Below, piece by piece: positions 807-28,604 of a stretch of DNA of 46,011 nucleotides. The notes under the pieces were generated by a model that worked only from the letters and a program-made list of their open reading frames with translations, was not told the DNA's origin and made no database searches. Origin of the DNA: Ectocarpus siliculosus (taxonomy: Eukaryota; Sar; Phaeophyceae; Ectocarpales; Ectocarpaceae); assembly GCA_000310025.1 (NCBI GenBank), contig FN649755.1, forward strand, positions 6,404 through 52,414. Reading direction: 5' to 3'. The position numbers and the translations under genes are program-made. Within the stretch, counting starts at the first letter, position 1; each line of letters opens with the position of its first letter.

Positions 807-837
<31 letters not shown>

Positions 838-838: not shown

Positions 839-847
839 CTCCCCAAA

Positions 848-2655: not shown

Positions 2656-3066
2656 TCCCCACCACATGACCTCCCCAAACCGAAGAATTTTAGAAAATGT
2701 GTAACAATAAATAGAAAACATGCTCGTCTTGCCAAACACTAAACACACTCTTAACTAGTGTCCTATAAGTGGCACTAAACACACTCTTATTCGGTATCCC
2801 GTACGTGTAATTCCGTAAGGATGCGAGAGAACGCATGGTTCGCACGTACCGATGATATCGCACACCCCGTACATGTTGTGTGCCCCCCGTGGTTCGGACG
2901 TCTTAGCCAAGGCTCTACTACTGCGCTAGGGCTCAATACACTTACAACATTTATTTGACACCGGTGCAAATATATATTTTATTTTTTTGTTTCAAAAACT
3001 GAAAAATGTATTGGGAAACCGTGGGTTTGTGTTTCGTTCGTTTCAACCAAGGTCCGTACGTCTCAG

Positions 3067-6000
3067 CTGGAGTCTGTGAAGCGCCAGCCAATGAGCGAGG
3101 CCGTTTTCGTCCATCTGGACAGGGGAGAGCTCACGGGGTCGACCGGGATGGACCCTGTCCCTGACATCTGTGACGGTGAGATAAAAAGGCCCTCCCACAC
3201 CGTCTTCCCGCGTTTCGCCGGCCGGGCGCCAGCCCCGGCGGCACCTCCCGCTGCAGCAGAGGAGCCGGCCGCGGCCTGGTATTTTAGTATACCTTTTTAG
3301 GGTAAGTTAGCCTGTGAACACGGGGATCGACAACGTCAAGTGTCAGACCAGTACGGACAGATGAAGGTACTGGAGAGAGACCGGAACGGTGTCAATGTGA
3401 AGACACCAACAACAAAACAAAACGGACAGATGAAGGGCTGGGTCGAGAGATCGGAACGGTTTTTATTCTGAAGACGCCAACAACTACATTGTGGAGGGTG
3501 TTCTAGTGTGAGGAGGTAACCTAACCGCATGATGATGTGTTGCCATGGTTGTTTTGGCGTCGCCAGACGCTTTGTTTTGGGCATCCCCTGAGCATTTCTT
3601 CCAGTAGTGAAGGGAAACCTGATACCTTTGCGTCCTCATGCCGCCGGTCACGATTGTTTTGCTGGAGTACAAGGCCCGGCACTTTCTTTTTTTTTGTCTT
3701 CCCTTCAAATCAGTGCTCAAGGCGTTTGTGCCGTTTTGCTCCAACCCGTGGTCACACAGGAGGGTTCCTCTCCCTCCTACCCAACCCACCCCTCCTGCGG
3801 TACTTTGTCGTCGATACAATTTAACGCGAGAAGAGTGCAGCACTCTCTTCCTTCTGTGTACACCCTATTGCAATCCAATATTGTCGCTTTTCCCTCTGCT
3901 TTTTGTGTTTTAAGGTAAGGACAACAACATATTTTCAGATTTTCGGGAGAAAAATATGATGTGGGTGGTTTTATATTTAATTTATTTATTTTTGGGTTTT
4001 TCAAGGACAAGCCAACCCTCTGTCGCACGTCAATTCTAGGCATCATTTGAGAGTGTTAACGTTCTGCGTGCCTGCCGTGTGACGCCTGTCATCATGCACC
4101 CTGTTTTGCAGGAGTAAAGGAGCACCTGGCTTCGGCGACCCAGAAGCTAGACAGAGCCCTCGGGAAGCTGGCCCTCCTTACCCGTGGCAACAAAGACGGC
4201 GGTGACAGAGGGTGAGACAGAAGAATAGGACTGCCACCGCAATAAAAATGTATGCTCTGCGTTTTTTCGATGCAATGGTTGGTACATTTATGTATTTCAA
4301 CAAAACCAATACTGGTGGTAATTAGCTGCACTTGGACTTCCTGCTGCCGGTATCAAGTTTCACAGAACCCTCTTACGGTTTTGATTGTCAAGACCTCAGG
4401 GACAACGTCGGGTTCCTCCCTGTTTTGTCCTTACCCGTCGGTTGTCAGGATGATGCACCATACGTCTGAGTAGGTCTTCATTTTTTTTTTTTGCGATTGG
4501 CTAAAATAGGCCACGAGGCGAGCGTATCTACTAAAAAGGAATGACGGGGATGGTATCAACGTCGTCTTTCTGTTGTTGGGATGATGTATCACACGTCTGA
4601 CCAGGCGTTTGTTTTTTTCCCCGTTTTTGTTTTCACCTTGCTAATTCTTGTCTGGTTAACCAGGCCTCGAGACGAGCGCGTCGGTTCAAAAGGCATGACG
4701 AAGGACGGCATCAACGACACGGCAAGCACCCTTTTCGCCGAGGTCAAGGCGATATTCTCCAAAGCCAAAAAGCAACGACCAGCCGGAGGAAGCGGGTGAG
4801 CTATTGTTTTGCTCTTCTCCGTTGTTTTCGCTCTTTTTTTGTGATTCGTTTGTTTCTCTTTGGTGAATCCTAGCCCTCTCTTGAACAACGATTCCCAGAT
4901 CAGAAGGAGGGGCGGTGATAAGGATTGGCCAGGTTTGGGGGCGGACTTTCTACAATCTCGTGTTGCTTTCGATTGAAGTGAGGCTGTACCCTATTATCGC
5001 ATTCCATGCTCGTGGCAAAACCCGTATTAGTGAGATGGTGACCCTATTCCATCCTCGCATTTGTTGTAGTGTGCTAGAATAGACCCTCATTTTTTTGTTT
5101 TTTCTTCGATATTCGCATTATGACCCGTACATCCTTCACGATTCATAACACTCCACCCCGCCCCCCTTCATGTTATCTGTTGTCGGTAGTGGTGGGACCG
5201 TGCTGCCTATGTATCCCCCCACGTTTTGTAACACTCCGCCCCCTCAAATTTTGTTTTGTATTGCAGCGGTGAGATTGACCTCTATGTATCCTCGCATTTC
5301 ATGCAGTGGTAGCCCCGCCCTCATGAATTCATCTTGTCTGTTGTGGTGAAATGTTGACCCCTGTCCTCGCATTCATGCAGTGCTGCCCACGCCCTCGTGA
5401 TTGTTTTGTCTGTAGTGGTGAAATGTTGACCCCTGTCCTCGCATTTTTGCACGCACTCATCATTCATTTTGTCTGCCGTCTTGGGGATTGTGACCCGTAT
5501 GTATCCTCGTGTTCATGCAATGCTACCTGCGCTGTCATGAGTCATTTCGTCTTGTGGTGGTGAAATGTTGGCCCCTGTCCTCGCATTCATGCATCACTAC
5601 CCCCGTGTTTGGCTGTGTTTACAGGAATTGGATGGTGACCCCGATGCATCCTCCACGTTTCAGAACACTCGGCCCCCTCATGTATTAGATCGTTTTTGTA
5701 GCGGTTGGGATGGTGACACTTATGTATCCTCGCATTTCATGCAGTGTTGTCCCCGCCTTCAGGATTAATTTTTCTGTGCAGTGGTGAAATGTTGACCCCT
5801 GTCCTCGCATTCATGCGTCACTACCCCCGTGTTTGTTTTTGTATGCAGCAGTGGGATGGTGACCCCTGAGGACCACTCTCTGAGAGAAGCTCTCGTGGGT
5901 TTCAACATCGGGCTGTTCGGCGACCACCGGACTATCCTTAGGAGGCAGCCCGATGTATCCGTCAAGGTCGATCACGATTACTTCATAAGGTAAGGTGACT

Positions 6001-9000
6001 CTTTTCGACTCCCAACTTTCGTTGGTCCCTGGCATTGCACTTGACACTGTACGGAGAAACGTAGATCGTATAGTAAGTGCTTGGTGTTTAAGACTGTTGT
6101 TTATTAGGTACTGTTCGCGACTTGACTCCTTCATAAGGTAGCTGATCGCGGCTAGACTACTTCATGAAGGTAAAGTGACTGTTCACAACTACTCTCCTTC
6201 ATGTTGTATCTATTCGGCGCAGGACACATCCACAAAGTAACTAATCGCTGGTGGACACTTCATCAAGTAACTAATCGATTAGTTTCTTGATATCAAGTAA
6301 ATAATCGATTAGTGATGGAAGTGTCCAGCCGCGATCAAGTAACTAATCGATTAGTTACTTGATGAAGTGTCCACCCGCGATTAGTTACTTTGTGGATGAT
6401 CAAGTAACTAATCGATTAGTTACTTGATGAAGTGTCCAGCCGCGATAGGTTACTTTGTGGATGTGTCCTGCACCGAATAGTTACCATATGAAGGAATCTA
6501 GTCGTGAACAATCCCCTCGCCTTATGAAGTCGCGGCTGGACGACGTGATTTAGTACGTCGAGTGTTCACAACTATTTCATTGGTAAATGTTCATGACGAG
6601 ACTCCTTTATTTTGTTCTGCCTCGTGCTTTGTGACGATGAAGGTATCGTGAACAAAGGGGGGACTCGGAGGGAGTACTGCGCTTCCTGAAGGAGTTCACG
6701 CAGAGCCAGATGTTCCACATGCACATGATGCATGTCAAGGTCAGTACATCGAATCTGTCCGTGGGAAAATATCCCAACTCTTACGTATCATGAATATCCA
6801 AACTCCTTCTCTCACACATGGAAAGTAGAGTATTGTGTGGCGAGCGTTCTTAATTATTTTTTCATTTCACTCCCATTACCTTTTTCTTTCAAGTTTCTTT
6901 TTTTTTTTTTGCTGTGGGCAGGGCGTATTGAGATTGCACGTGGATGGTCGTGATGGCGGCGTTGCTTGTTTTTGGAGGTTCACTGTGTCGTCGGGATGTG
7001 GACTGCTCGGTATCTTTCCTTGAGCGAAGCGTCTGGGCGATGAACGATGCCCGCTAGCGACGAGAGATGCGAAGATTCGTGCGAAGCGGTGCTTGTGATC
7101 GGCAACCAGAAGGGCGTTGCTGCTGCTGCTGCTGCTGCTGCTGACCACCACGGCCGCTGTTCCTCCTGTGTGGCTGCCGCTGACCACTCCTACTGCTGCT
7201 GCTGCTGCTGCTGCTGTTCCTCCTGCTTCTGCCTGCCGATGCTGCTGCTCTCCATTCCGCCCTTTCCCGCACCCACGCCGCAGGACCGACTGCGCAACAA
7301 GCAGGACCCAAGCACCCCCAGCCCCAGGGAGGGAGCACCAGACCACCGCCACCACCCCTCCCCCGCGACCTTCCTGCGCGTTAGCGACCAGCTCACCCTC
7401 AGGGGCGGGTGGGGCGACGCGAGCGGGAACGGGGGGGGGGGCTTCGCGCCCGCCTCGGTCAAGAGGGCCCTGAGCAAGGTGTTGGCGGAGGCGTTGCCAG
7501 CCGGGTCCGGTGAGGTTTCCGATTGCGTACGATAGCACCCACCCAACCCCCCGCCCGGTTTTTCAGGCTCAAACATGCTCTTGTGTGGAATAAAGCATTG
7601 CAACGCTACCGCTGTAGTAGCATTTTGGCAAATGTTGGAAGTGGCAGCTGGTGTGTTGTCGTTCTTCGTTGCCTATGCTGTTGTCGTTGTTGTCTTCACA
7701 TTGAAACCGTTCCGATTTCTCTATCTAGTACCTTCATCTGTCCCGTGCTAGTCTAACACTTGACGCGGTCGATTCCCGTGGTCACAGGCTAACTTACCCC
7801 CAAGAAAGGCGTCCTCAGATAGAAAGGGTCCCGAAGGGTCCACAAGTCTGGTCGTGATCATAATTGTGTGTGTGTGTCGAGCTCGATTGTGTCCGTTGCG
7901 CCCTGAATATTGCGCACCAACGCCTGCTGTAGTATTTTTTGTCTGTTTCATCCGATTCTCTGCATTTTTTCTGTGAAATCAGAAAATTCAAGTGACTGCT
8001 GATGTCTTGTTGGTCCTGGCCATGTTTTATCTCTTTATGTTGGTCGTGGTTGCTTGGTAACACGGTTCTTCTCTCTCGACCCCACTCCGAAGGTACCACC
8101 TGTGGAAACGAAGATATTGCGTGCACTTGCCCGGAAAGGAAATCATAATCATTTCTCTTGCAGTTTGTGTAGCCGAATTTAACTTTATTTGATTTCTGTC
8201 TTGGGTAACATTTGGCTACAGGTTCCAATTCCTACGGTGACCCAACTTTGAACCCGAGGGCCCTCGCCGCGACGGCCAACGGCAACGCTTCCGCCAAGGA
8301 CATGGCCAAACTCAGGGCCGAGCTTTGCAGGTGAGAAGAATAAATGCGAGGTTGGCGTGGAGCTTTGACGGGTGGTACTTCCTGTAGCAAACGAGATTTT
8401 TTGGGCGCGATGGCTTGGGGATTAACACAAAAAGGGTCGATTGGCACACTTTTTCAGGGACTTTTTTTTTTTATCCGCTCTCGCGAGGTGGCGGAGGTGA
8501 GAGCGAAGGATAATGAATGATCACAGCTTTAGAGGGGGACGTGGGCGTACCTCAAGTGTTGCAGGCCTCAGCTTTTAGACCGATGGCCACGCGTCATCGA
8601 GAGGACGGAGCCAAGGCCCAAATGTTTCCTATCCTATCTATGTCAGGAGGGAGTGGGGGGGGATGTACTCGTAGTCATCCATGCCATAGTGGTTAGATAA
8701 TTGACCTCGCATTCCTACGGGACGGAGCACGCCGGATTGTCACCGGACCAGGCTCTTCAGGACGGAGGGGGGGTGGTACTGTATTTTGGGGGTCGAGATC
8801 AATGTTAATTATGCGTTGTGTTGACGGGACTGTACGACGACTGATTGTGCTGTGTTGCGCCTCTTTGCTGCTGTGCAGTGCTTTGGGTTGTTGACCTTTG
8901 TATATTTTTTGGCGTCGAGATGGATCATCAACCGATTCGTTCACTGTCCAAGCCCCCGCTACGCGAAACAGTCCGTCGCCATCGAGCGTCACATTTGTGG

Positions 9001-12000
9001 ACCATACGTGGGCTCCGCTAGACACGTTGACGAAGGGCCATATTCGCTCACCCCGCCGATGCATATCGGTGCTTTGCGTGATGCTGTGGGTTGTTGACCG
9101 TTGCGTTTTGCGGATCGAGGTCACTTTGGATTCTGCCTTGCGGTGGCCCGCTGCACCATTTGCTGCCGTGATGTCCTGCGGGCGGTTTCGCCGTTGTGTT
9201 AGGCAGATCGAGGTCAATTTCGATTTTTCGTTGTGTGGTGACCAGATACACCCTCTTGCTGCCGTTCTGTGGTGTGCTGCGGTGTGCTGTGGGTTGTTGA
9301 CCTCCGTTCCCGCAGGACTGCGAGAGAGTCCGCCAAGCTGAGCGGAATCATGCGTGTGGTGTGGGTGAGGCTGCTCGACTGCCGCGGCAACAAGTGAGGA
9401 TTGTGTCTCGCACACGACACGATATCATACCATACACTACTTATATTTAGTACGATATCATACCATACACTTCTTAATAGGATGTGATATCATTCCATAC
9501 ACTACTTAATAGGATACGATATCATTCCATACACTACCTAATAGTATATGATATCATTCTACGCTTCTTGTTAGTGTACCTACTTGTTTTGATACGACAT
9601 AATACAAGTACTTGTTAGGAACCGATATTTTACCGTACACTACATTTTCCCTTCCAGCCTTCAGAGGGTGGTGACGCGCACACGATGCGATACGATAATT
9701 CGTACGCCTTTTTTCTTTCAGCCTTACGATGGAGGTGAGGCACATTCCCCCCGCAATTCCAGTCCCGTATTTGGGTGCCCGCACGGCATCGGATGCCCAA
9801 GACTGCTCGAAGCCCTCGGCCTAATTATTATTTCCCACAATGACAATCCCGTTCATAGGTGGCCGCACGCCATGGAAGACCTGAGGCTGCTGAAAGCCCT
9901 CAACATAACTACAATTTTCCCACCATGCCAATCTCGTTCATAGGTGGCCGCACGCCATGGAAGGCCTGAGGCTGCTGAAGGCCCTCCTCCTGTCCGGACC
10001 AGCGGGGTGTGTCGCCGACGCTCTCAACCACGTGCCCCTCATCCGGCGGTGCGCGCAGTACCCCAAGGGATGGGAGGATACGGGAGTGGTGGGGGGCGGG
10101 GGGGGGGATGCTGGGAAAGCGTCCCCGAGGATCCGGGCCATGGCTCGGGAGGCGAGTTTTTTTTGTGTGAAGCATCACCTCCTAGCTGTTGGGCACTGAG
10201 TATGCCCTAGGATCCGTGCCGTGGCCCGGGAGGCGTGTTGGTTTCTTGTGTCTTTCATCAAACTCTAGTTGTTGGATGCTGAATTGCCCTCGGATCGGGG
10301 CCATGGCTCGGAAGGCGAGTTTTTTTTTGTGTGTCGTACACGTTCCAGCTGTTCGGTACTGCGTTTTCGCTTTCTCTCTTTTTGTGTACACCGACTGCGC
10401 TAGAAAATGCGCCATCATCCTGAGACCAGACCAGTATTTGCTTGGCAAATTATTGGTGGTAGAATGGCTCGCCTGAGATCCAGGCCATGAAAAAGACGTC
10501 AGTCAGTCTTAGTGCGGTTGAGAACACAACACTTTTGTGTGTGTGTGTCATACACGATCTAGCTATTTGGTACTGCGTCGTCCATTGGTATAAACGTTTT
10601 TCAGTGCAATGTTGACGTTACTCTCTGGTGTACCTGTTTTTCTATTTTTTGGTCCACCCAACGGTCGCAGGTGGTGACGCTCGTGATGGACATGAAGAGG
10701 CTGGCCTTGCGCCGCGAAGCGGTAGCGAACCTCGAGCAGCGGGAGGCGGACAGGGCGGGGGGGCTCCCGGAGAAGATCAAGCTCCGTAGCCGGTAAGACC
10801 ATGGGCAACCGACTATACCCCGCGCCTTTGCCCCTCCGCAACAAAAAAAAAACAACCAAGCGCTTGACCAGTCGAAATGTTTACGCGCGCAGAATGTCGA
10901 AGATTTCTATGGACATCCATTCTAGGCGGAACAACCTGGCGGGACAGACATCTTTCGGCGAGTCCTCTAACCACACGCACCACAACGAACCGTCATTGTA
11001 TTACTATAACGACCGTACCGCACCGCACCGTACCGCACCGCACCGCACCGCACCGTGGACATCCCTGGATTATTAAGGTGCATGCCGGACTTCAGCACCT
11101 TCCACAACCTGGTGGGACAGGCATCTTTCGGCGACTCCTCTAACCACACGGGAGGCTTCGATAGCGGAGGCAATGTAACCAACGACGACGAGGTGGCGGC
11201 AGCCGTTACAGGGGCGCTGTTCTCGTCGAGAAGCAAGTCTTCAGTGGGGGGAAGCAGCGGTAAGTTCTTCCTCTTCTTTTTTATTTTTCTGCTGTGCCCT
11301 TTCTTGTCTTGGTGTTTTTTTTGTTTTTCTCCTCGAGAAGCAAGTCTTCAGTGGGGGGGAGCATCGGTGAGTTCTTCGTGCTTTTTTTTTGGGTGTTTCG
11401 AACCCTTACTTGTCTTGGTGTTTTTCTCTTTTTCTCCTCTAGAAGCAAGTCTTCAGTGGGGGGAAGCAGTGGTGAGTCTTGTTATTTCATCGCCGTGCCC
11501 CTTCATGTCTTGGTGTGCTTTTTCAGCCTGCTGTTCTCGTCGAGAAGCAAGTCTTCGCTGCGGTAAGTCTTCTATTTTTTGTTTTTTTCCGTTTTGAACT
11601 CTTTGTTGTCCTGATGGACTTTTCCTCGAGAACAAGTCGTGTGGAGCAGCGGTGAGTCTTCTTTCTTTTTTGCTAAATTGAGCCCTTTCTTGTATTGATG
11701 TGTTCTCTGGACCCCTGGAGGTGAGTGCGCTCCCGCTGCGTCTAACCTTTGGCCGGGTGTATTACCCCCCCCCCCGTAAAGTGCGTTCTCATGGCAAGGG
11801 TTCAGCAACCCTTCACTTTTATTTCAGGAGACTTGGATTGGTTTTCGCCGTTGGGTTATGTTTCGTCGCGATGTTGTTTTTCTTGTTTGGAGTAATTTTT
11901 CAACGACAAGGCACGCTGCTTGTGTTGTTATTGTTTGTTGCTGTTCTTGTTTTGTCACTCAAACTGACATCGTCATGATACAGCAGTATTGCGGAAGCAG

Positions 12001-15000
12001 CAAAAATCTCAACAGCCACGCGATGGCACCATTGTCTCGGCAGGAAATATTTCTGCGGTCTTTGTTGTACTTGGAATATTTTTGGGTCTTCTCGAGGAGA
12101 AAGGTTTACCTTGTCGTCGATGTTTGAGTGGGGTCATTGGGTGGTCGCTGTCCTGATGTGATTGGCTAGCGACAGCAGCGGCTGCAAAGTTGGCAGCAGG
12201 TCGATGTCTTTCTACGTACTGTCCATTGTACCCCGGGGAGGTCAAGCAGACATCACGATTTCTTTCTCCTGGTACAAGAAAATATGGTGTTCCGCGTTGT
12301 TGCGGTTTCGTATGTTTTGTAGTGAACAGGCAAACAGAAGCGAGCATTTTGGTTGTATGATATTCCCCCGCGTGTTCGTGCACAAAGAGGAGTGGTGCCA
12401 AATAAATACCAAATCTCCCGAATTTCCCTTTTTTTCTGGTGGTAATAATTTGCGGGCTACGTGGCAACACCCCGACGGCAGATCTCCGACCGGTCATCAG
12501 ACGTCACAATCTACGACAATCTGAGGTGAAATTTCACAGAGCTGTTTGTTCTTCACCCCCGTCATTTGTTCCCGTACTGTATGTATGTCTATTTCTTTCG
12601 TCTGCAGAGTACGGTTCGCAGGGCGATGGCGGGCTGCAAGGGCTACCGGCCTTCGGAGATCTCGGAGATTCCTCCAGCCGTGCCGCGTGGCAGGACCTGG
12701 CTGCTACGTACTCGCTGCCTGCGGGTGGCGGAAGCGGATACGACGAAGAGAGCAGCGATGGCGAGGTATGCGTGCCACACAAGATAACACCCCCTGGACC
12801 GATTTTCAAAGACCGATTTATCAACAGCAGCAAGAGTCGCAGCGCCGAGAATGGCGGCGTCGAAGCCGCCCGGTCGAGTACTTCTATGCCGGTATTCCGC
12901 AAGAATAACCGCTGTTGTACGACCGTATACACAAGATAACACACCCCCTGGACCGATGTTCAAAGCTCGATTTATCAACAGCAGAAAGAGTGGCAGCGCC
13001 GAAAACGGTGCGGTTGAAGCGGTCTAGTCGAGAGCTCTCCGAAAACGTGTCGTTTCGTTTGTGTATCTTCTTCGTCGTGGAGTAATCGGGCTTTGAAAAT
13101 CGGTCCAGGGGGTGTGTTATCTTGTGTCACGTCGTATACGGTATTGTGGCTGTGGTTATGACCGCTGCGGTTGTCGTCAATCAATGTGAAAGCAACGACA
13201 ACACAATACATCCGGGCATCGCGTGCTCCCGGCTAAAGACGGCGTGCTGCCAACCCGGAGTGTCCTTTATTTTTGACGTCCTTATGACGGGAGGGCGACT
13301 GTGACTCTCCGTCCCACCATCCCTGTTCTTGGAGGAGGGTGTCGTTATGCGGCTTCTCCATCGTACCAGGGGTTTCGAGGCTCACTGAATTTCTTCACTG
13401 CCAATGACTGTAGGCGCCAACTGTATAGCCCTACGCCTTTGCCCAACCCCGGACCATCGGCAGAGCAACGCCGGGGGGACCTCGCCGCCGCCGCCGCCGC
13501 TCCCGGTCCGCGGGGACTCCGTGGGATCATCCCGTGATGGCAGTGGGTATGTCCGCAACAACCGCAGCAGCACCAGCAGCCCCCAAGGTCCTCTGGTGCA
13601 AGACTTGCTCTCGGACGAGTTCGTGGGACCGGGAAGCGGAGGCAGCGCTAGCCCTAACCCGTTCCAAGGTGGGTGATGAGCGAGACAATGTGGAATACGG
13701 TATGGTTCCATGGATACAATGCGGCCCCGGGAAACGGACGCGGCGCTAGCCCTAACCCGTTCCAAGGTGAGTGATGAGCCAGACAATGTGGAATACGGTA
13801 TGGTTCCATGGATACAATGCGGCCCCGGGAAAAGGACGCGGCGCTAGCCTTAACCCGTTCCAAGGTGAGTGAGATGCTGTGGAATATGGTATCGTCGCAT
13901 GGATACATTGCGGCCTCGGGAAGCGGCCGCAGCGCTAAATAGCCCTAACCCATTCCAAGGTGAGTGAGATAATGTGGAATTTTCATGTGTACGTCGCCGC
14001 CCATTATTGTTGCCGCTGCTGCCGCTGCTGTGACTCATCCTGCCTTCTACCCCCGACACCCATCCTAAAATGGCGCGCAACCCTCGCTTTTGTTGCTGCT
14101 GCTGCTGCTGCCGCTGCTGCGACTCCTCCTGCTCTCTACTCCAACGCCCATCCAATTCAGGCCGGCAATCCTTGGACGACAACGGCTTTCCAGTGCAAGA
14201 GGCGTCTTCGGGCTTGTCCACCGCGGTGGTCGGTTACACTTCCTCCCCGAAGTCGCTGGCACCACCGCCACCATCACCATGGGAGGTCCCTGGCCAGGTG
14301 AAGACGCTTTTTTTTTTCTTCTTCTAGGGTAACGCATTTTTTGTAGATGGGCGGATTTTTCTGTTCAAGTGCGAATGTGTTGGGCGTCTTTGCAGTCGGT
14401 GGGGGAGAAACATGCTGGACTCCCCCGGAAGAGGTTTTTCTTACAAACCAGGAAGTCATAGGTGGACAATAACGGTATATATTCACAGTTGACCAAGGCA
14501 TGCACTCCGTCGCTTACATTCGTACCCAGGTCGTTCGCCGGCGTGCTTGACTTTTTTTTTTTCGTTATTTGAAGGTGGTGGACGAAGCCCATCTCTTCCT
14601 TATGCTTATCTCATCACGCCTTGTTTGACGCGCAACGTTTGAAAGGTACCATTCTGGTGCCGAAAGAAAACATACATACCTTCCTTCGTCGCTCGCGGTG
14701 GCTTTTTTTTTTTCAACGGATACCATCCATTACAAAGTGGTGGTGGTTCCGATATATCGCGGTCCCGATGAACACGGTTCCCGAGGTAGTCGCGGTAAAT
14801 TGCTATTCAGGGACATTTCCCCGTAGGGCGGTTCCTGATGTACCGCGGTTATTGACGGTTTTCACGTTTTTTCTTATTCTGGTGGGTTACCGGTGAGAGC
14901 AAAATTGAAGGAGGAAATATACTCACCTTTCCAACCCTAGACGCAGCCAGTTCACAATTCCAGCATTTGCCATCTCTCCTACAGATATCAGAGGCAATTT

Positions 15001-17040: not shown

Positions 17041-17078
<38 letters not shown>

Positions 17079-17359: not shown

Positions 17360-20300
17360 ACGTGTGTAGCGGTCCGTTGGGCCGGATTGGATGTATCCGT
17401 TGGACGGCTGTTGCGATGATGTTGGTCGTGCCGAAATGCACTACCTTGGGGTGGCGTCTAGCCGCTTGCGGATTGCCTCCCCCTGGCCTTGTTTTTGTCG
17501 ATCAAACCGCTGCGAGCATGACGAGATTTGGTGATACTTTTGGAGGGTGGGGGCTTACTATTGTTTTGCATGCCTTGGCGGTCAGACCGTTGACCACAAG
17601 AGGACGTAGCATTCGGAGGGTAACATGGGGGGATGTTGTTCCGACGGTTGGTCGGCGGCAATGTGTGTGCGATTGGTTCATTGGCAGCGGAACCACTGTA
17701 GCATGCTAACGGAAGCTCGCACGTTGCGTTATATTTGCAAGTATTTACTACTGTGTAGATGAACAAGGAGAGCCGGTCGCCTTGTGAAGGCCGGTGAGAT
17801 CGGGATGTACCGATGGAATGTTCAAGTCAGTTGTCTCATGTCGTCGTTGTCTTGAGGGAGTTTTGGTTTATTCATGCACGAATACGCGTGTATCAATATG
17901 TCGATGGTTAATGCTGTGTCTCACGAGTACAGTACTTACAGTGGTTGCGCACACTCTGTGGACATGTGCTCAGGGCAGATTGTAAGACACGTTTCGAAAA
18001 GAGTGGCGCGGCACGATGCTTCTGCTGTGAATCCGACCCTGCGCACCACAATGTTTTTGTGGGAGACGCTTCTGACGTTGGAGAGAGCGTCTAGCCGATG
18101 CTTGCGGACAGTCACTTGAAGCGTCAGGGGTCTGCAGAAGGGCTAGATGCCTGCTGCTACATAGTGAACAATCGATTCCATCAACGAACGCCTTCGTGAC
18201 CTCTGTGTAAAGTTCCATGAAGAAAGCGTTTCACCTGGCATTTTTATTTCCACTCTTGATTGCCTCCTTGGTCGAAACACCAAGAACAAGTATTGAAAGT
18301 GAGAGAGACAATGTTTGCTTCCAAATACGGGTATGTAACAACCACCACATGGAACGTGTTGGAAGCCGCGAAGGGCCTGTCTGCCGTGGAGCTAATTCCT
18401 TCTGCTTCTGCGTACAATGTACGACGACGATGAGGTCTATTCGAGCTAAAACTTGTCCTGGTTCGAGTGCCGGGATGAGCTACATATTGGGTCGGCAAAT
18501 ATCCAACAACAGTTGCCCGATCAAGCGTCATCGGGACTACTTCAGGCCCGGAATAAGAGACTTCAAAGAGACTTCAAAATCGGGTCGAGGCTCCATCCCT
18601 TATTTTGCGTCGAAGGACCAGCCGAAGTCGTCCATTTTCTTAAAAGGCATTTCGTACAAGTATTCCTTTGGACTATCGCGTCCTCCTGATGCTGTCATTT
18701 CTCATTTCTTTAATTTCTGGCTATAAGAATATGCATACAATAACACCAAACATTCGCAGCAGTGAGTAAAGCAGCCCGCGGAGGCGCCGAGTAGCTAAAT
18801 AGCGCGGAGGTGGGGGGGGCAGCGCCAACAGTCACTCTCCCTACGAAAAAAACGTTGTCCAGCTAAATAGGTACGGGGGGAGTGGGAGCACGGAAGGAGC
18901 AGCAGTGGAACGTTTCTTATTGGATACGCTCCGCCAGAAACCCTTGTTTCCCATGTATTGGGGGTATCGCACGATCATGTTTCTTATTGGAACGTTTGTT
19001 GTGTTGTGGCCGAGATTGAGCTATGTTTCTTAGTCTCTTTTTCTTATCTTTGGTAAAAAGTTAGTCTAATAAAAAGCCATTTTTTTGGATTTTTTCGCAA
19101 TTCCGCGCGGGCCCAAACTGCTGTTGTTTCCTCCGTGGGAGAGTCAAGCAAGGTAATATTTCTAGGGTTCGTTGTGGTCAGGGATTATCCCGGCAGTTTT
19201 TTCCCACCTTAGTCGGCGGTCCCGGTACTGGCGGTAGACACCATGTTTTGGTGTTACCGCGACCGGTGCAGGCGGTACGCGGAAAAACGAAAAACGGGTT
19301 TTATGTACCGCCAAAGAAGTACCGCCAAAGAAGTACCGCCAAAGAAGTACCGCCAAATTGCACACACACCCCTCCTGCCTGGGTGTCCGCCAAAAAACGG
19401 TCCCGACGACAACCAACCCTGAAAATTTCAGGTCATAGGTACATCTTGAAGGAAGCAAGTACCACCAAGACGGCGTTCTCTCGAATACTTGGAGGGCAGT
19501 ATTACGAGAGTGGAAACGCCTTTATGCTGGCGCAACCCGCGGCGTCTCATGTACGTCGCATCCACCTACTGCTGTGGTACATAGCAGTGTATTATTATGT
19601 CGCGCAACACGGACGATATATTTTTATATTTTTCTCTCCTCCAGGCTACCGCAGTGCATGTATGTGTGTGCCTACGGTCTTGGATCTAGCGCCGAATCCA
19701 CCCCACAGGGGAAACAGTCGTTACAGTACGAGAGTTGATTGTGGGGGGCTCTCGACTCATTGTACTCGCGTGTGAAACGTTGTTGAACCAGTTGAAGCCG
19801 AGAGAGAAACGCCTTGTTGTCGGCGGTTTCATGTTTCAAGGCTACCGTTTCAGACCATCCTTCGGAAAACAAAAGGGACGGTGGGTGGGGAAAAACTACA
19901 ACAGTGCTGCCAACCGCCTGTAGATCAGAGCTGTAGTGCGAGATGGTTTTGGGTCTGCTAATCCCGCGGCGATCAGTGAGCCTGTGCGCTTGCCCCCGGA
20001 ATGATCTGCCCCTTCGTCTGCTGCAGGTGGTCACCTTGCATATATATATCTTCCAGCTCGATTGATTGCTGCTCGAGTACATGGTGAAGAAGAATCAGCA
20101 ACATAGTGATGTGTCCTTGGAACGACCTTGGTGAGATGGTTCCAACTTCGACACCGCTGTCCGCTCTTTCTACTGCTGTGGCGGCAATGGCGGGCTTGGA
20201 TACATCCGTGTATCTGTTGTTTTACCGATCCATTGGGGTGTGGCATCTATTATAACGTCATCTGGTTGGGGTATACGTACTTGGATACGTCTTCCAACTG

Positions 20301-20565
20301 CGGGGACCCCACAGGCGCGTTTGCTGTGCACAGAGCATAGCACTTTGAGCACCGGGAAGCCTAGTGCAGGGAGCACCAGGAGACGCGTGGTTGGTTCTCC
20401 TTCCTCTGTGTCACTATCTTGTTCTTTACGGCGTGAGGTGGCGTGGCGACTTGCTCGGCCAATCCTTCTCTCGACAACCTAGACCAAAGACAACCACCAC
20501 CGCAAGCAAGGTCTGCTGCTACACCGCGGCCTTTGACGGTTACCACGGCAAGGAGCTGCAGCAGC
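17360..20565. other. Intergenic region between the fusion gene and MRPS9
   Basis: No exon chain or known family was recognised on either strand. The first few hundred bases should include the 3' UTR of the fusion gene. A 169-codon plus-strand frame at 18217-18726 starts with a hydrophobic stretch, but it has no family resemblance and no coding signature I trust. The 3' end should include the promoter and 5' UTR of MRPS9. Confidence 0.5.
19305..19356. repeat. Short tandem repeat AAGAAGTACCGCCAA
   Basis: Four copies in a row of a 15-16 bp unit, next to looser GGCGGT/ACCGCC elements from 19213. Confidence 0.85.
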
Positions 20566-23500
20566 ATGGCAAGCCGTGCAACAGCGACAACTGCCATGAA
20601 GCACCCGCTCATCCAGCGCGTGATGACGGCAGCAGCTTCCTCTCGCGCCGGTGGCAGCAAGGCGGCTCTCCACAGCTCTTCCGCACAGGCAGGCGGCGCA
20701 GCAGCAAGACCTACCGCTTGCCGTCATGTCGCCCGTGGCGGCGGCAAGAACCCAGCGTTGCCGGCTCCTGCTGGGTCTGCTGGGCTAGTAGTCTCTCGAA
20801 GGCACATGTCCTCTGGCACAACGGGAGACGACAGCAGCAGCAGCAGCGGGCGGTTCAGTGAGGACTTGGAGAAGCTCATCTCCAGGGCGGGCGAGAGAGC
20901 CGATCGCACGGGCAAGTCAGGGAAGGGAGAAAAAGCCTCTGCCGTTGCGGTTGCTGCGCCCCGGGCGGCTGCTGGCGAGGGGGCAGGGGAGGAAGAGGAG
21001 GAGGACCCGGCGCTGTCTGCGCGCGCGATGAAGTTCCGGGCCATGATCAGCAAGCTCAGGCCCCAGAAAAAAACTGCCGTTGTCAAGGTATGCCTATTTA
21101 TGCTGTCTCAACAGTATGCATACCGTGTATAGGTGACATAAGATACCACCCCCCCCCCGATTTTCAACGTTCGATTGCTGCACAGCTCCAAACACAGCCG
21201 TATCCTATGCGTATAGTTAGCCCCCGCACTTATGAACTTGGGAGTTACGAAATTTTGGCTCAAATCCAGATAAGTTTAGGAACGTGACCATGAGAACGGG
21301 TGGTCTGTCGAGAGGCCTATACACTACCGAGTACATATGAGTGTGAGTCAGCAGTGTACGTTTTAGAGAAAAATAACTGAATTTGTTGCACATCTTGTAG
21401 AGATGGATGTGTTGTGTCATAAGAAAAAAAAAAAAATGGCAAAAAGTCTAATAATAAGAAGCGAGCCTCGGGCAAAATAATTGGTTCTTCATGTGCTGTT
21501 TCAGGAGTGCACCTGGTCTTGACCTGGTACATCATAACTCCATTTCCAGAAGGTGACACACGGTAGATACCACCCCCTTGTCCGGTTTTGTTCAGCTCGA
21601 TTGCTCCACAGCAGAACAAGCGGCGGTGGCGTTGGAACCGCCTTGTCGAGATCTCTCTCACACAGATTGTTTGATCATGTGTCGTGTTCCTTGAGGAGAA
21701 ATAGAGCTTCTGAAAATCGATCCAGGGGGTCTGATGTCTTACGTAACCTATGTCTGCGGGAGGTGTGGCACTCCCTCCGCATGGGCTCTTTGCCTGCCTG
21801 TGGCACCCTCACGCTACCATACAACGTCGTTCGCAACAGCGCGTGCCCCGCATGCGTATGTACATCAGTATTCTAGAGCTCTAATAGTTCTTCCTCTTAG
21901 TGTGGGATTTGCCAGTGACGTCGCCTTACACGAGTCGTGGATGTCTGCCATCCTCCCATACTCTTTTGTCCCACACTATCTCGGGTAGAAGCATTTCTCG
22001 CTCATGTCTTACTTGTTGTTGTTGTTGTTGTCGTTGTCGTTGTTGTTGTTGTCTTCACATTAAAAACCGTTCCGGCCTCCGCTCAGTACCTTCTAGTGTC
22101 TGTATATACTCCTGGTTCAACTGAAGCGAACGCCTTTCGTGGTCACAAGCCAACTGCCCCCAAAAAGGGATAGATAAAAAAAATATCGTCGCCACTTCTA
22201 AATTTTGAGAAGATGATCGTTCAAAGCATCGGTGATGGACCGAAAGCCACAAAATGTCGGCTTTGCTCACCCAAAGAAACCTCGTTGGGCTCCCTTTACC
22301 GCGCCTCTGTTACCCCATGGACCATACCCTCGCCCCCGGAACCTGGCGCGACTATCTACCTCCATCGGACGCATGTATCTTCATGCTGTCTTCGGTTTTT
22401 TCCAGCGTGCTTTCTGCATAGTAGATGAGAGAGAAGCTCCTTTGCTGAGCATTTCGCCGGGTACGCGGTGCGAGAAGTCGACGAGGCGCTGAGGCTAGCG
22501 AAACTAGACCCCGATCTGAGTGAGGAGGCAAACCAACTGTTATGCCTTCAAGGTGGCCTCAAGGAAATATGGAAATATCAACCAGCCGGTTATGGTGGTC
22601 CTGCCGATGAGAGATAGGTTGCTAGAGTCGTGCGGGGGCGGCAATGATTTGGATTACAAACACATGGAGGAGGAGTTCTCGACCCCTACGAACGTACTAT
22701 GCTGGCGAGCTAGCTGATCGTAGGATATGCACTGCTCTGCTTAGGNNNNNNNNNNNNNNNNNNNNNNNNNNNNNNNNNNNNNNNNNNNNNNNNNNNNNNN
22801 NNNNNNNNNNNNNNNNNNNNNNNNNNNNNNNNNNNNNNNNNNNNNTTTGGCAAGCCTACTACCTCCGTGAAGGTCGAGAGCTCCTCCTCCATGCGTGTGT
22901 AGTCGACTTTGCCGGCATCCTTGCATGACTCTAGCAACCGATCCCTCGACCACGGGACCGCCGTAATCGACTGGTTGGTATTCCCTGCCTTCTTGAGGCC
23001 ACCTTGAAGGTATGACAGTCGTGTTGTTTACTCGCTCAGGTCGGGATCCAGTTTTGAGAGCCTCAGGGCCTCATCCACTTCGCGTCTACAACTCTCCAGC
23101 AGCAGTTCGATGCTTTCTCGGCCTGTCTTGCACCGTTTCGTTCGCGCGTGAACGCTGGTACCTTCTACCGTAACATCGCTCAAAGGTTTAACAAACGGTA
23201 TTTTGTTTTGCCGGCATTTTCCTCGCAGACAGGAGTCCTCCAATCTCGACTGCATGCGTTGACGGTTTCTTGGCGTTTGCGGCCCCTTTTGTGCCGTTTC
23301 GTGTTTCCGGCGTGAACACTGCCTAGACCTGTACTCGATAGGCCTTCCTTTTTTTTCGTAACATAGCACAACAAATCCATCTCTATCCATAGAAAAGGAT
23401 CTAGGATATATTGGTAATGAAGTCAAGCGTTAGCGGGGTGCGATTCAGATTAACTATTTTTGGTTCCATTCTATTCTCAGCATTATACCCGAAATCGACA

Positions 23501-26500
23501 ATGAAATGTACAAAGCAAGAGCCTGTCGAGTACTGGTTTAACGCTGCCGCTACTACACCCACCCCTCTCTCCAGACATTCACGCCTTCGAGGGAACCGTT
23601 AGTTGACAACTTGGGCCGCTCTTACGGCCTAGGAAGGCGTAAGACCAGCACGGCTAGGGTGTGGATCTCTCTCTCCAAGGGCGAGGGGGGCGTGTTCATG
23701 GTCAACTCGAGGCCCATGATCGACTACTTCCCTCGGGACCACCTGCAGAACGAGGTAACTGCTGGCGGTTTCGTCTTAGCTGTGGTTTATGCTTATTTGA
23801 GTGGCACCACACTTTCTGTGCTTTCGTCGTAGTCAGCTGTGGTGTGTGCTTGGTTGAATCACGCCACACGTTCTGCACTGTTGTTGTTTTCGTCATAGTC
23901 AGCTCCGGATCGTGCTTCCAGCGTAAGCCGTCGAAGAAGAAGGAGAGCTATTGTAGTACCACCGCACTTTCTGAAGCTGCTGCTTTCGTCTGGAGGCAGC
24001 TGTGTTTTGTGCGTGATGAGCGCCACACTTTCTGTGCTTTCGTCGTAGTCAGCCGTGTTTTGTGCTTGATTGAGTCGCACCACCCTTTCGGTGCTTCATC
24101 TTAATGTGAGCTGCTGTGTTTTGTGCGTCATTCGCCCCACACTCTCTGTGCGTTCGTTGTAGTTAGCCGTGTTTTGTGCTTGATTGAGTGGCACCGCACT
24201 TTCTGTAGCTGTCGCTTTGGTCTTAGTCAGCTGTGTTTGGTGCATTATTTAGTAGCACCACGATGAAGGGCGGCAGTTGCGGCTTTTTACCCTGTGCCAA
24301 TTAACCTCGTTTTTGTCCTTGTTTCGCAAGTGCTAGGTTGTTATCACCCTCGCTATTGCTGTTTTTGGGCCGTCAGATTCTTGAGGCCCTTGAATACATC
24401 AGCGAGCTTGGCAAACTACTTGTGTGCTGTTGCCGTGCTGAAGGCATCGTCCCTTCCACCGGGTTTTGCTGTGTTTCGCTGGGCCGTCAGATTCTCAAGT
24501 CTCTTGAATACACCAGCAAGCTCGGAAACTTCCATGTTGTTGCCATCCTGAAGGCATCGTCCCCCTCCCACGGCTATTCTTGATTTTGTTTTGGCGATCA
24601 CATTCTTAAGTCCCTTGATTACTCCAGAGGGGCTGGCAACGTCTACTTTTTTTTTTTTCCTGTACGAATCGTCACCCTCCCCCCCCTCCCCCCCCCCGGC
24701 TGTTGCTGTGTTTTGTGGGCCGCCAGATTCTTAAGCCCCTTGAGTACACCAACAAGCTCGGCAACTTCCATGTGAGGTGCACGGCAAAGGGAGGTGGCCA
24801 AGCTGGCCAAGCCGGCGCCATCAGGCTGGGTCTGGCGAGGGCGCTGGAGGCACACGACCCCTGGCTCAGGAAGATGCTCAAGAAAGGTACAGTACAGCAG
24901 CGGTTGACACCTAAGCAGAGCAGTGCATATCCCTGGCTCAGCAAGCTCCTCAAGAAAGGTACAGTACAGCAGCAGTTGACACCTATGTCGAGCAGTGCGT
25001 ATCCCTGGCTCAGCCAGGTCCTCAAGAAAGGTACAGTACACTCCTGGGCCCTGTGTAGTGCCGATATGTGTTCAGAGATTTTGCCGGCACTGCTCCGGAC
25101 ACTGGCACTGTAAGCCTGACACCGGCGCTATTCAAAGTACCGAAAGACTTGGTACGTATTTCAACGAGTGCGAGCCGAAACACCTGCACTATCGTGTATA
25201 TGACACAAGATAGCACACCCCCTGGACCATTTTTCAAAGCTCGATTTCGCCATGACGAAGAGGATGAATCAACCAAACGGTACAGTTTCGGAAAGCTCTC
25301 GACGAGACAGCTTCAACGCCACCGTTTTCGGCGCTGTGAGTGTTTCTGTGGTTGAGAAATCGATATTTGAAAATCGGCCCTGGGGGTGTGTTATGTTGTG
25401 TCATTTACGGTATACCGGGCACCCGACACTTTTCGACGGGCACTATACAGGGCCCAGTGCTGTACTGCGTATCCCTGGCTCAGGAAGTTCCTCAAGAACG
25501 CAGTACAGTACTGAGCATTGCGTATCCCTGGGTCGGGATGCTCCTCAAGAAAGATTCTGCAGCAGTTCCATCCACTATGAGCAGACCAGAGCGTGCCCCG
25601 TTCTGCGGCGTCCTTCCGTACATGCACGTTGGCGCTGTAACCGGGTGTTGTAGTTGCCGTTTGCCGCCTGTGGTCATCCCGAAGACCGTTCTTTTTTTTC
25701 CGGGCAAGTGCACGCAACATGTTCGTTTCCACAGGTGGTACCTTTGGAGTGGGGTCGAGAGAGAACAACCGTGTTACCAAGAAACCACGACCGAATTAAA
25801 AAGATAACCATATGTAGGCCAGGAGCAACAAGACATCAGCTGTCACTTCCCATTTCCAAAATCTCTGTCCCTCGCTGTTGTTGTTCCGCGGTCTTCCGTG
25901 AAACCGGAAGGAAGGTGACCACGAACCGCACGGTTGTAGCACAGAAAACCTTACCGTAAGAGTCGGAGAGATGGCACCCCCCCAAGACCGACTTTCCAAG
26001 CTCGATTACTCCATGACCAAGATTGTCTGTACCGAACCGTATAACGTACCGTGGTATTCCGTAGGAGGCGGAGAGATGGCACCCCTCCTAGACCGACTTT
26101 CAAAGCTGGTTTGCTCCACAATCAAGATTGTCTGTACTGTACCGAATACCGCACCGTGGTATTCCGTAAGGGTCGGAGAAATGGAACCCCCCTAGACCGA
26201 ATTTCAAAGCTCGATATTCCCACAACCAAGATTGTGCCAACGCCAATAACGGTGGTTTTGGAAATATCTCGTCAAGGGAAATTGTTCACGTATCGGGCTC
26301 TTTCCGCGCCCACTTGTGGAGCAATCGAGCTTTGAAAGTCGGTCTAGCGTGGATGCCATCTCTCTCCCTCTTACGGGCTCTTTCCGTCCATTTTCGGAAT
26401 ATCGTAGGTGACACGAGATACCGAACCCCCCGGACCGATTTTCAGAGCTATATTTATCCACAGTAGAAAAGAAGCGTGGCAGCGCCGAAACGGCGGGGTT

Positions 26501-28047
26501 GAAACCGTCTCGTTAAGAGCTTTCCGAAAACGTATCGTTTCATGTATGCATCCTCTTCGTCGTGGAATAATCGAGCTTTGAAAATTGGTCCAGGGGGTGT
26601 GGTATTCTATGAAACCACGGTTTCCTGTGAAACCACGGCATACAATGAAACCACCGTGAAACCGCGGTATACAATGAAACCGCGGTATGCTATCAAACCG
26701 CGGTGTCCTATGAAATCACGGTATCGTATGAAATCACCGTATATCGTGTGGCATGTAAATGGGTACGCGTGGCCTCAAAAGGACAACTTGGCGCGCCGTG
26801 TCTCATGTTTTGCGCTCTGAATGGAACGGTACGGCGGCTGGTGTTGTCTTTCTCGGCAATTCTTGAAAATGTCGTTTGTGGGCATTTTGGGCGATTCGTT
26901 TTCAAGCGGCGAAAGGGGACATGAGCCGCGTCGCACCCAGTGGGCGGGGCAGGTATCGTAGCATATTTCGTTCATTACCCCGTTGCGCATTCAACAAGTC
27001 ATACCACCTTTTGGTCACCCTTGTACATAGACCGCGAGCAATTGCAGCTCCTAGCTTCGTCACGACCTGAAACTCATCCACCCCACTGCATAAGATTCTA
27101 CATGGTACAATCCCCTGGACCGACTTTCAAAGCGCGATTCCTCCACGAGGCAGGGGATACCAAAATCAAATACTTCTTACTCCATTTTCGGAAGGCTCTC
27201 GACGAGACAGTTCCAAGGCCGTCATTGTCGGCACCGTCACAGCTCTTTCTGCCGAGCAATCGAGCTTTAGAATTTGGACCAGGAGGTGTGATGCATTTTG
27301 CAACACAGTATCATACCCCACACCATCCTTGATCGGTCGATTTTTAATCTCCCCTTCGCGGCCCTTGCCTGTTGTGCTTTTTTTTTCTCATGATACAACA
27401 CATCCATCTCCACAAGATGTGCAACAATTTCATCCTTCTAAGTATTGTCGCCCCTCGTGCGCGATGTTTGTGTTGGTTCAGAGGGCATCAATGAGCGGGA
27501 CTCTCGAGCATGCAGTCTTTTGGTGGCCACTGTAGACCGCAATTGTCGCACCTAAATTTTGCTCACCCTTCGTCGACCTCGATCCGTCGCTTTTTTTCGT
27601 TGTCTTCCCTGTCCTTGCCTCCTTTGTATTTTTTTACTTCAGAGACTGGACTCTCGAAAATGCAGTCTTTTGGTGACCCCTGCAGGCCGCAGTTGTCACA
27701 CCTGAATTTGAGCTCACCCGGCATCGACCCAACCCGACATCGACCCTAATATTTTCGTATCCTCCCCTTCCAGTCCCTCCCCCGTGTTTGTTTACTTCAG
27801 AGGGCATGATGAAACAAGCCTCTCGAACATGCAGTCTTGGTGGCCCCTGCAGACCGCAATTTCTCGCACCTAATTTTGAGCTCACAAGACATTGTATCCT
27901 CCCATTCCCTTGCCTCCTTTGCCCGCCTCCGCGTGATTTTTTTGTGCTTTTTCAGAGGGCATGATGGAACGAGACTCCCGAAGGGTGGAGCGCAAGAAGC
28001 CGGGTCTCAAGAAGGCTAGGAAGGCACCGCAGTGGGTCAAGCGATAA
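20566..28047 (+). CDS. MRPS9: Mitochondrial small-subunit ribosomal protein uS9
   Basis: Exons: 20566-21087, 22432-22527 (end uncertain), 23575-23754, 24727-24886 and 27956-28047, all joining in phase, about 349 residues without any extra exon at the gap. The start was chosen because it opens a presequence-like segment (MASRATATTAMKHPLIQRVM) rich in Arg, Ala and Ser and free of acidic residues. A long non-conserved, acidic linker follows. The uS9 core is clear: GRSYGLGRRKTSTARVW (exon 23575), PLEYTNKLGNFHV and GQAGAIRLGLARALE (exon 24727), and the terminal KKPGLKKARKAPQWVKR. The basic C-terminus of uS9 reaches the P-site tRNA in bacterial-type ribosomes. Loss of gap sequence may hide one exon between 22528 and 23574. 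Nuclear coding with mitochondrial targeting is inferred from the leader; a plastid target is less likely. Confidence 0.88.
21548..21745. mobile_element. MITE family A, diverged copy
   Basis: AGGTGACACACGGTAGATAC at the left and AAAATCGATCCAGGGGGTCT at the right, with a GGCGTTGGAACCGCCTTGTC centre. A solo left end of the same type lies at 21131-21190. Both are in MRPS9 intron 1. Confidence 0.6.
22017..22170 (-). mobile_element. SINE-like element C, copy 5
   Basis: On the minus strand it runs from 22170 through GTTGGCTTGTGACCACGAAAG and GGAACGGTTTTTAATGTGAA to an (AAC)n-like tail at 22017-22055. Confidence 0.7.
22746..22845. other. Assembly gap of exactly 100 N
   Basis: One hundred undetermined bases, the conventional length for a scaffold gap of unknown size. 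It lies within MRPS9, so missing exon sequence and a wrong contig orientation on either side are both possible. Confidence 0.95.
23028..23086 (-). pseudogene. Inverted extra copy of MRPS9 exon 2
   Basis: The minus strand encodes EVDEALRLSKLDPDLSE, differing from the plus-strand exon at 22471-22524 by one amino acid. It is followed by a GTAAAC donor-like site where the plus copy has GCAAAC. Upstream of it the minus strand has no matching SFAEHFAGYAVR segment, so the copy is partial. It may belong to a second MRPS9 gene, a rearranged allele or a misassembled contig. Confidence 0.6.
23755..24270 (+). repeat. Tandem repeat after the donor of MRPS9 exon 23575
   Basis: About seven units of 55-75 bp with the pattern GTGTTTTGTGCTTGATTGAG, GCACCACACTTTCTGTGC and TTTCGTCGTAGTCAGC. 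The first unit begins directly at the exon's donor region. Confidence 0.8.
24365..24726 (+). repeat. Three decayed copies of the acceptor of MRPS9 exon 24727
   Basis: The true junction reads GGGCCGCCAG/ATTCTTAAGCCCCTTGAGTACACC. Copies: 24367 (GGGCCGTCAGATTCTTGAGG), 24481 (GGGCCGTCAGATTCTCAAGT) and 24590 (GGCGATCACATTCTTAAGTC). Each includes a version of the CTTGAATACACCAGC coding block, followed by CTGAAGGCATCGTCCC. Confidence 0.88.
24861..25035 (+). repeat. Three copies of the donor of MRPS9 exon 24727-24886
   Basis: CCCTGGCTCAGGAAGATGCT...AAGAAAG/GTACAGTACA at the exon is followed by copies at 24930 and 25002 with the same GGTACAGTACA(G) end. Further copies occur after a MITE insertion at 25470 and 25526. 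Confidence 0.88.
25196..25411. mobile_element. MITE family A copy inside the donor-repeat array
   Basis: Termini GACACAAGATAGCACACCCC and GGGGGTGTGTTATGTTGTGT. In this copy the centre runs in the opposite direction (CTCTCGACGAGACAGCTTCA, then AACGCCACCGTTTTCGGCGC). Donor-junction copies of MRPS9 lie on both sides, so the insertion came after at least some of the duplications. Confidence 0.8.
25430..25560 (+). repeat. Further MRPS9 donor-junction copies
   Basis: GTATCCCTGGCTCAGGAAGT (25468) and GTATCCCTGGGTCGGGATGC (25526), each followed by CTCAAGAA. These continue the array at 24861-25035 beyond the MITE. Confidence 0.75.
25950..26376. mobile_element. MITE family B, with tandem left ends
   Basis: TACCGTAAGAGTCGGAGAGA at 25950 starts a left end that is repeated at 26060 and 26160, each followed by ATGG(C/A)ACCCC, GACCGA(C/A)TTTC and (G/A)TTGTCTGTAC. 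The right end at 26322-26376 (TTTGAAAGTCGGTCTAGCGT...) is the inverted partner. Confidence 0.65.
26400..26612. mobile_element. MITE family A copy
   Basis: Left GTGACACGAGATACCGAACC, centre CGTATCGTTTCATGTATGCA, right GAAAATTGGTCCAGGGGGTG. A tandem repeat begins at its right end. Confidence 0.8.
26608..26755. repeat. Tandem repeat with ACCGCGGT palindromes
   Basis: About eight units of 15-19 bp, of the type TATGAAACC(A/G)CGGTAT(C/A)C, directly after the right end of the MITE. Confidence 0.85.
27090..27302. mobile_element. MITE family A, diverged copy
   Basis: CCCCTGGACCGACTTTCAAA at the left and AATCGAGCTTTAGAATTTGG plus ACCAGGAGGTGTGATGC at the right. Confidence 0.6.
27478..27955 (+). repeat. 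Three decayed copies of the acceptor of the last MRPS9 exon
   Basis: The true junction reads TTTTTCAG/AGGGCATGATGGAACGAGAC, then TCCCGAAGGGTGGAGCG. Copies at 27477 (CAGAGGGCATCAATGAGCGG), 27640 (TCAGAGACTGGACTCTCGAA) and 27796 (CAGAGGGCATGATGAAACAA) all continue with ACTCTCGA(A/G)(A/C)ATGCAGTCTT and a GACCGCA(A/G)TT(G/T)(T/C)C(G/A)CACCT stretch of intron. Confidence 0.88.
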
Positions 28048-28340: not shown

Positions 28341-28604
28341 GTTGCCCTCGACGAATGAGAGGTTGATTTGCCCTGGATGGGTCGACGGCAGTAGTTGCCA
28401 ATAGAGGTGTTCATCCACTTTTTTGGTCTCTTGTTTTCTGTGGTGTCTTTTGGTGTGCGGTGGTGTGTGGCATACCGGATGTTGTGATGGTGCCGTCGGT
28501 TTAAGTGTGCGGTGACTTGTAACGCTTTGATCAAACGCACGTATGTATGGCCATCCGGCGGTACGGCGGTAGCTTTTGGTACGGTGGCGCACGTACCGTA
28601 ACTG

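Follow-up and report, generated by a model that had tools for sequence, protein, structure and literature searches.

Ma, Lan and Niu (2016, PMC4974935) reported a tandem duplication across an intron-exon boundary in an RdRp gene of potato. As in the arrays described here, the duplicated unit joins an intron's 3' end to the 5' edge of the exon that follows, with the splice signals included. The single duplication in potato is reported to have given rise to a new intron and an extra piece of exon, backed by RNA-seq data and outgroups, and an 83 bp tandem duplication inside the first intron is also mentioned in that paper (PMC4974935). In the Rogers model, introns are gained through tandem duplication of exonic AGGT segments (PMC3443670, PMC2891723); as presented there, and likewise in the arrays studied here, tandem duplication yields redundant splice sites and the mRNA can remain unchanged. 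Intronic minisatellites, as reported from Daphnia (PMC3152781) and from human segmental duplications (PMC2812944), share with these arrays the head-to-tail arrangement of units of tens to more than 100 bases within genes.

Here, we analysed a stretch of 46,011 nucleotides from Ectocarpus siliculosus, hereafter the window, in which splice junctions have been copied within the introns of two genes. While the potato case is a single duplication, these copies form multi-copy arrays at many borders, have been absorbed into existing introns and are known from the sequence alone. The arrays differ from the Rogers model in that the units extend across borders that were already there and add length to introns already present, and from intronic minisatellites in that some of them include an exon edge and a splice site. 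We regard them as the same kind of event as in potato RdRp, in a multi-copy form absorbed by the intron. In a literature search mostly confined to papers available without subscription, we found no description of border copies in many introns of one genome.

Gene models and other features of the window

The window corresponds to positions 6,404-52,414 of contig C30 (4.0 Mb) in an assembly of 189 Mb and 492 contigs. The two genes were modelled by frame continuity as follows:

4114-17359, + strand: ENTH-domain gene (gene 1), 15 modelled exons, based on frame continuity and Pfam ENTH
Exons 1-8 of the ENTH gene: 4114-4211, 4664-4795, 5849-5989, 6643-6739, 7284-7509, 8222-8330, 9316-9393, 9944-10151
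Exons 9-15 of the ENTH gene: 10671-10792, 11078-11259, 12608-12765, 13464-13668, 14161-14297, 15417-15974, 16553-17359
20566-28047, + strand: mitochondrial ribosomal protein uS9 gene, 4 exons (20566-21087, 23575-23754, 24727-24886, 27956-28047)

The Pfam ENTH match had an E-value of 2.3e-8 with a query of 517 residues from exons 1-11 of gene 1, and the uS9 model matched Pfam Ribosomal_S9 with an E-value of 1.6e-42. The less certain parts of the ENTH model are its 5' end and the acceptor of exon 12. The start of this exon was set at 13464 for frame, while 13414 was used in the loose scan, the control-border test and the estimate of interior rates; the border counts were identical. The exon 8 donor of the ENTH gene is GC (CGGGAG/GCGAGT, 10145-10160), which makes this a GC-AG intron, and the GC is kept in both inner copies. 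The median intron length is 653 nt in the window, 418.5 nt in the kinesin controls and 512 nt in the chaperonin controls, values near the 524 bp given for introns on Ectocarpus autosomes in PMC12477816.

The window also contains a dispersed, self-complementary (palindromic) element of about 200 bp, which is MITE-like and occurs in both orientations, in introns as well as between genes, with copies that are 65-87% alike:

2437-2649: palindromic element copy
12929-13129: palindromic element copy
25196-25412: palindromic element copy
26400-26605: palindromic element copy
28594-28812: palindromic element copy
32703-32916: palindromic element copy
45304-45500: palindromic element copy

Downstream of the two genes, a 69 bp unit at 29880-30019 is duplicated with 100% identity and represents either the youngest-looking duplication in the window or possibly an assembly fault. 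An array of 36 bp repeats with approximately 16 units (two TRF rows) lies in an open frame at 31644-32245, within a segment of longer repeats of similar type that starts near 30.7 kb. The segment at 40250-40780 is shredded into homopolymer runs of all four bases and resembles a sequencing or assembly fault, and a gap of 100 Ns (22746-22845) is placed between inverted repeats at 22471-22706 and 22850-23084 that are 75% alike. In the genome as a whole, the chlorophyll-binding family PF00504 had 87 matches, with gene clusters on C92, C232 and C488 (identical scores) and on C16:100-282 kb (alternating strands).

Copies of splice junctions within introns

In a strict anchored test, the 40 exon and 40 intron nucleotides flanking each junction were used to search the remainder of that intron, and a copy was required to reach a total score of at least 20, with at least 6 on each side, at a distance of at least 20 nt. 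A junction-spanning copy was identified at 11 of the 34 borders in the window. No matches were obtained with reverse-complemented introns (0/34), other introns in the window (0/544) or first-order Markov introns (0/680), and a looser scan flagged 15 of the 34 exon edges. The copies align to both flanks of an existing junction, the intron flank included, so that the unit at the 11 borders comprises an intron end, an exon edge and a splice site, as in potato. TRF and self-alignment placed arrays at or near the ranges of the initial annotation, with TRF periods of 31-152 at the border sites, and the copies are imperfect and arranged head-to-tail with units of tens of bases or more, as in intronic minisatellites and other tandem repeat arrays. 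That annotation had listed 11 ranges with border copies, ten of which passed the strict test while the eleventh (4500-4605) passed a looser one. The 11 borders of the strict test are made up of these ten and of one weak case that had not been listed, the acceptor of intron 12 (score 22). These results confirm that the copies of splice junctions in the introns of the ENTH and uS9 genes are real. The sites are:

4500-4663, + strand: decayed copy of the exon 2 acceptor, ENTH gene; unit of about 163 bp, failed the strict test, loose score 29
5266-5848, + strand: acceptor array before exon 3, ENTH gene; score 40, inner junctions 5266, 5343, 5415, 5478, 5624, 5701 and 5781, AG in 5/7
5989-6180, + strand: donor copies after exon 3, ENTH gene; score 21, inner junctions 6137 and 6169
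9774-9986, + strand: acceptor array at exon 8, ENTH gene; score 59, found by TRF, period 85, inner junctions 9774 and 9858
10124-10335, + strand: donor array after exon 8 (GC donor), ENTH gene; score 42, found by TRF, inner junctions 10232 and 10314
10931-11150, + strand: decayed acceptor-side copy at the start of exon 10, absent from the initial annotation; self-alignment of 10931-10977 with 11104-11150, 93.6% identity
11220-11709, + strand: donor array after exon 10, ENTH gene; score 49, inner junctions 11366, 11471, 11562 and 11651, GT in all
13629-13980, + strand: donor array after exon 12, ENTH gene; score 70, period 98, inner junctions 13766, 13864 and 13959 all GTGAGT, outer GTGGGT
14072-14160, + strand: weak acceptor copy before exon 13 (intron 12 acceptor); score 22
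14955-15438, + strand: acceptor array before exon 14, ENTH gene; score 30, inner junctions 15096 and 15252, both without AG
24376-24726, + strand: acceptor array before uS9 exon 3; score 52, inner junctions 24376, 24490 and 24601
24859-25565, + strand: donor array after uS9 exon 3; score 54, period 72, inner junctions 24958 and 25030, decayed copies at 25500 and 25553
27465-27982, + strand: acceptor array before uS9 exon 4; score 25, inner junctions 27481, 27642 and 27800, AG in all

The largest run contains up to eight copies of a junction at one border, six of which have an intact AG. In the donor array after uS9 exon 3, the decayed copies at 25500 and 25553 are located beyond a palindromic element at about 25196-25412, and the position of this element between copies of the array indicates that duplication and insertion were layered in time.

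An error of sequencing or assembly could in principle also create such arrays, and the window does contain the homopolymer-shredded stretch (~40250-40780) and the N gap with inverted flanks (22746-22845). However, neither of these overlaps the border arrays, a dispersed element interrupts one array, and approximately 25-30% of the flanking bases are different between the border copies and the outer copy. Given this divergence between copies, it is most improbable that the border arrays are artefacts. Introner-like elements were also considered and rejected, since none of the 544 border queries matched other introns in the window and the segment 4212-5300 (one intron-exon stretch) had a single match in the genome.

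Decay of the inner copies and probable choice of the outermost junction

On average, the inner copies match the outer copy with an identity of 0.75 in the exon flank and 0.68 in the intron flank. Of the inner donors, 13/15 retain the splice dinucleotide, as do 11/18 of the inner acceptors, and shifts by multiples of three are seen at nine of these 33 inner junctions. If the inner junctions were used, the reading frame would run into a stop codon in 23 cases, while there would be no stop in the remaining ten, three of which are also in frame. These three are the donor at 11562, with an extension of 101 codons, and those at 24958 and 25030, the first two inner donors of uS9 exon 3, which would extend the exon by 24 and 48 codons without a stop. 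All inner junctions that were listed for gene 1, except for the donor at 11562, either shift the frame or introduce a stop. The suggestion in the initial annotation that inner copies hold stops or intron sequence is thus valid for the majority of the junctions and not for the ten that are free of stops.

The uS9 model with the outermost junctions is ungapped at the exon 2/3 and exon 3/4 junctions when compared with solved uS9 chains (3 of 112 distinct sequences matched). The earlier proposal that the frame is kept by the outermost copy therefore gains firm support from homology in uS9 and is likely in gene 1, where the argument is drawn from frame. By homology, the outermost copy firmly fits the predicted uS9 protein, and by frame it likely does so for the predicted product of gene 1. 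The spliceosome accordingly would be expected to use the outer sites in both genes.

Several inner donors score at least as high as the outer donor with a weight matrix derived from 44 control introns, as exemplified by exon 12 (11.8 versus 9.6). These strong inner donors count against the explanation that we favour below, ordinary tandem duplication, as they leave the choice of the outer site unexplained. They would be expected if the inner copies were maintained as arrays of alternative splice sites, serving isoforms or the tuning of expression. The three in-frame, stop-free donors also agree with such a role, as does the retention of the splice dinucleotide at 24 of the 33 inner junctions, compared with about 17.3 expected from the identity of the flanks. 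However, the rate of retention is similar for dinucleotides at neighbouring offsets, because the copies were selected for similarity at the junction. Moreover, only 9/33 shifts preserve the frame and 23/33 extensions reach a stop. Selected arrays of splice sites were rejected as an account of the retained dinucleotides, and we consider it very unlikely that the inner copies are kept for alternative splicing. The pattern fits a decay of the inner copies without selection.

Borders compared with intron interiors

The initial annotation had suggested that introns grow by repeated tandem duplication across their borders, a reading that would predict copy rates above those at random positions in introns. 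We compared the borders with pseudo-borders in the interior of the same introns, with the same inward search over 400 nt, in 15 of the 17 introns, two shorter ones being left out. Copies were found at 11 of 30 borders compared to 9.2 expected (P = 0.24), and within the introns examined the copy rate at borders was thus largely no higher than at random positions. At thresholds of 16, 25 and 30, the P-values were 0.12, 0.29 and 0.14, with the observed number above the expected each time. Since the border count exceeds the expectation at all four thresholds, a small border preference is possible, but the borders are not clearly special. The part of the suggestion that stands is that units span borders and that the extra copies are intronic, while the focus on borders does not, and the reading of intron growth across borders is partly supported.

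Inward copies were observed at 0/34 positions 75 nt inside the exon, 11/34 at the border, 17/34 at 75 nt inside the intron and 8/34 at 150 nt, with a peak at 60-90 nt inside the intron (15-17/34). Such a profile would result from units ranging from tens of bp to about 160 bp that fall across the intron and its edges, although the peak at 60-90 nt is unpredicted. Copies in any direction were found at a rate of 0.37 for positions less than 60 nt from a border, 0.43 at 60-539 nt and 0.24 at positions at least 540 nt from a border, the last of which come from the longer introns only (n = 371). The lower rate at these distances and the inward peak at 60-90 nt show that the duplications are unevenly spread over long introns, which, like the possible small border preference, counts against ordinary tandem duplication as the explanation. 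Duplication of whole exons, including mutually exclusive exons, was rejected as a source of the copies, as inward copies had vanished (0/34) by 75 nt inside the exon and each array repeats one border.

Duplication might nonetheless be set off specifically where exon and intron meet, for instance through breaks linked to splicing or transcription, so that introns grow from their ends. Copies at 11/34 borders, a count above expectation at each threshold and the high frequency of inward copies 60-90 nt inside the intron are all in line with such border-directed growth. Against this, the excess over pseudo-borders of the same introns gives P = 0.12-0.29, the copy rate is 0.37 within 60 nt of the border versus 0.43 at 60-539 nt, and none of 126 borders in control genes has a copy (see below). 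We therefore consider it unlikely that duplication is directed to the borders.

Comparison with other genes in the genome

To assess how general the border copies are, control introns were modelled from exon matches to kinesin-motor and chaperonin genes, which are conserved and may not represent all genes. In total, 63 introns were modelled from 91 adjacent pairs of matches; 23 pairs were without a model and another five were not taken in. As 44 of the 63 introns are confident, a number of control borders may be set wrongly, in which case their copies would be missed. The strict test identified no copies at the 126 borders of the 63 introns, where about 2.8 were expected from the interior one-sided copy rate, which is 0.022 in the control introns versus 0.189 in the window introns. 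With looser criteria, 15 of 290 control exon edges were flagged, and two of these are clear border copies, both in chaperonin genes. In one of these genes (L070), a stretch made up of an acceptor and about 45 bases of its exon recurs 213 bp upstream, and the downstream (outermost) copy alone runs into the conserved exon. In the other (L067), a donor-side copy is located 98 bp into the intron, with its GT now changed to TT. Both are independent instances of the outermost-copy rule. Another two flagged edges are uncertain (C38:123615 and C23:235353), and the remaining 11 were judged by eye to be low-complexity sequence, off the border or dispersed repeats. Border copies are thus rare in the control genes, and the results do not support them as a general feature of this genome.

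The window and control introns differ strongly in their content of duplications, a contrast that is inflated because the window was chosen for its striking appearance. More than 5% duplicated positions were found in 13 of 17 window introns versus 10 of 63 control introns (p = 4e-9), and the mean duplicated fraction of introns of at least 450 nt is 0.41 in the window (16 introns) versus 0.05 in the controls (31 introns). Similarly, TRF identified 23 arrays with a period of 30-500 in the window, corresponding to 5.0 per 10 kb and 10% of the bases when the repeat-coding stretch at ~30.7-32.3 kb is included, and eight arrays in 189,031 bases of the controls (0.42 per 10 kb, 0.5%). Two intergenic stretches of the window are almost devoid of duplicated positions, with fractions of 0.007 (17450-20450) and 0.000 (36000-40200), and the fractions elsewhere are 0.13 (760-3400), 0.144 (28200-36000, with the repeat-coding stretch) and 0.048 (40800-45200). 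The excess of duplications thus peaks within the ENTH and uS9 introns. No arrays were found by TRF in 4 kb beside the window nor in 4 kb from the middle of the contig (L075, L076). The unusual feature is the richness of the ENTH and uS9 introns in tandem duplications.

The window begins 6.4 kb into its 4.0 Mb contig. Nearness to a chromosome end was rejected as a cause, as array cover is not correlated with the distance to the contig end in 44 control loci (Spearman -0.09, p = 0.55; L031 left out). The telomere-like motif (CCCTAA)5 has 146 exact matches in the genome. Among the matches listed (100 of 146), none was in or beside the window on this contig, most were far from contig ends and represent interstitial telomere-like repeats, and a few were close to contig ends, on C8, C16, C17 and C56.

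Origin and significance of the arrays

Taken together, the arrays are probably the result of ordinary tandem duplications that have accumulated in, and been tolerated by, introns, some of them straddling a splice site. The introns would have gathered many duplications of differing age, which may have been caused by slippage or by the repair of breaks, and the units that span borders are mostly about 30-165 bp. A unit that straddles a donor or an acceptor would copy the splice site too and so produce a run of junctions. Duplication over a donor would yield the order exon-intron-exon-intron, in which splicing from the first donor would restore the old mRNA, and after duplication over an acceptor the last acceptor would do so. 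The inner copies would turn into intron and then decay like the rest. A border duplication would be tolerated because the junction farthest from the centre of the intron leaves the mRNA unchanged, while a duplication inside an exon alters the protein. Border duplications should for this reason do hardly more harm than duplications that lie wholly within an intron, and such near-neutral tolerance would produce the outermost-copy rule without any directed process.

For gene prediction, an inner copy may be mistaken for the edge of an exon. The near-identical, competing splice sites would also be good test material for site choice by the spliceosome. A more far-reaching idea, which we put forward tentatively and regard as rather doubtful, is that bursts of tandem duplication are concentrated in the introns of some genes and that the spliceosome still takes the outermost of many junctions. 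If so, the choice of the outermost site would imply a strong exon-based selection of splice sites, and the introns with bursts would amount to natural experiments in how splice sites compete, in which the inner sites, including the three that are in frame and free of stops, are perhaps used at a low level. The arrays suggest that introns can take up duplications that cross their borders with the protein unharmed, and tandem duplication combined with the redundancy of splice sites would thereby offer a route by which introns become longer.
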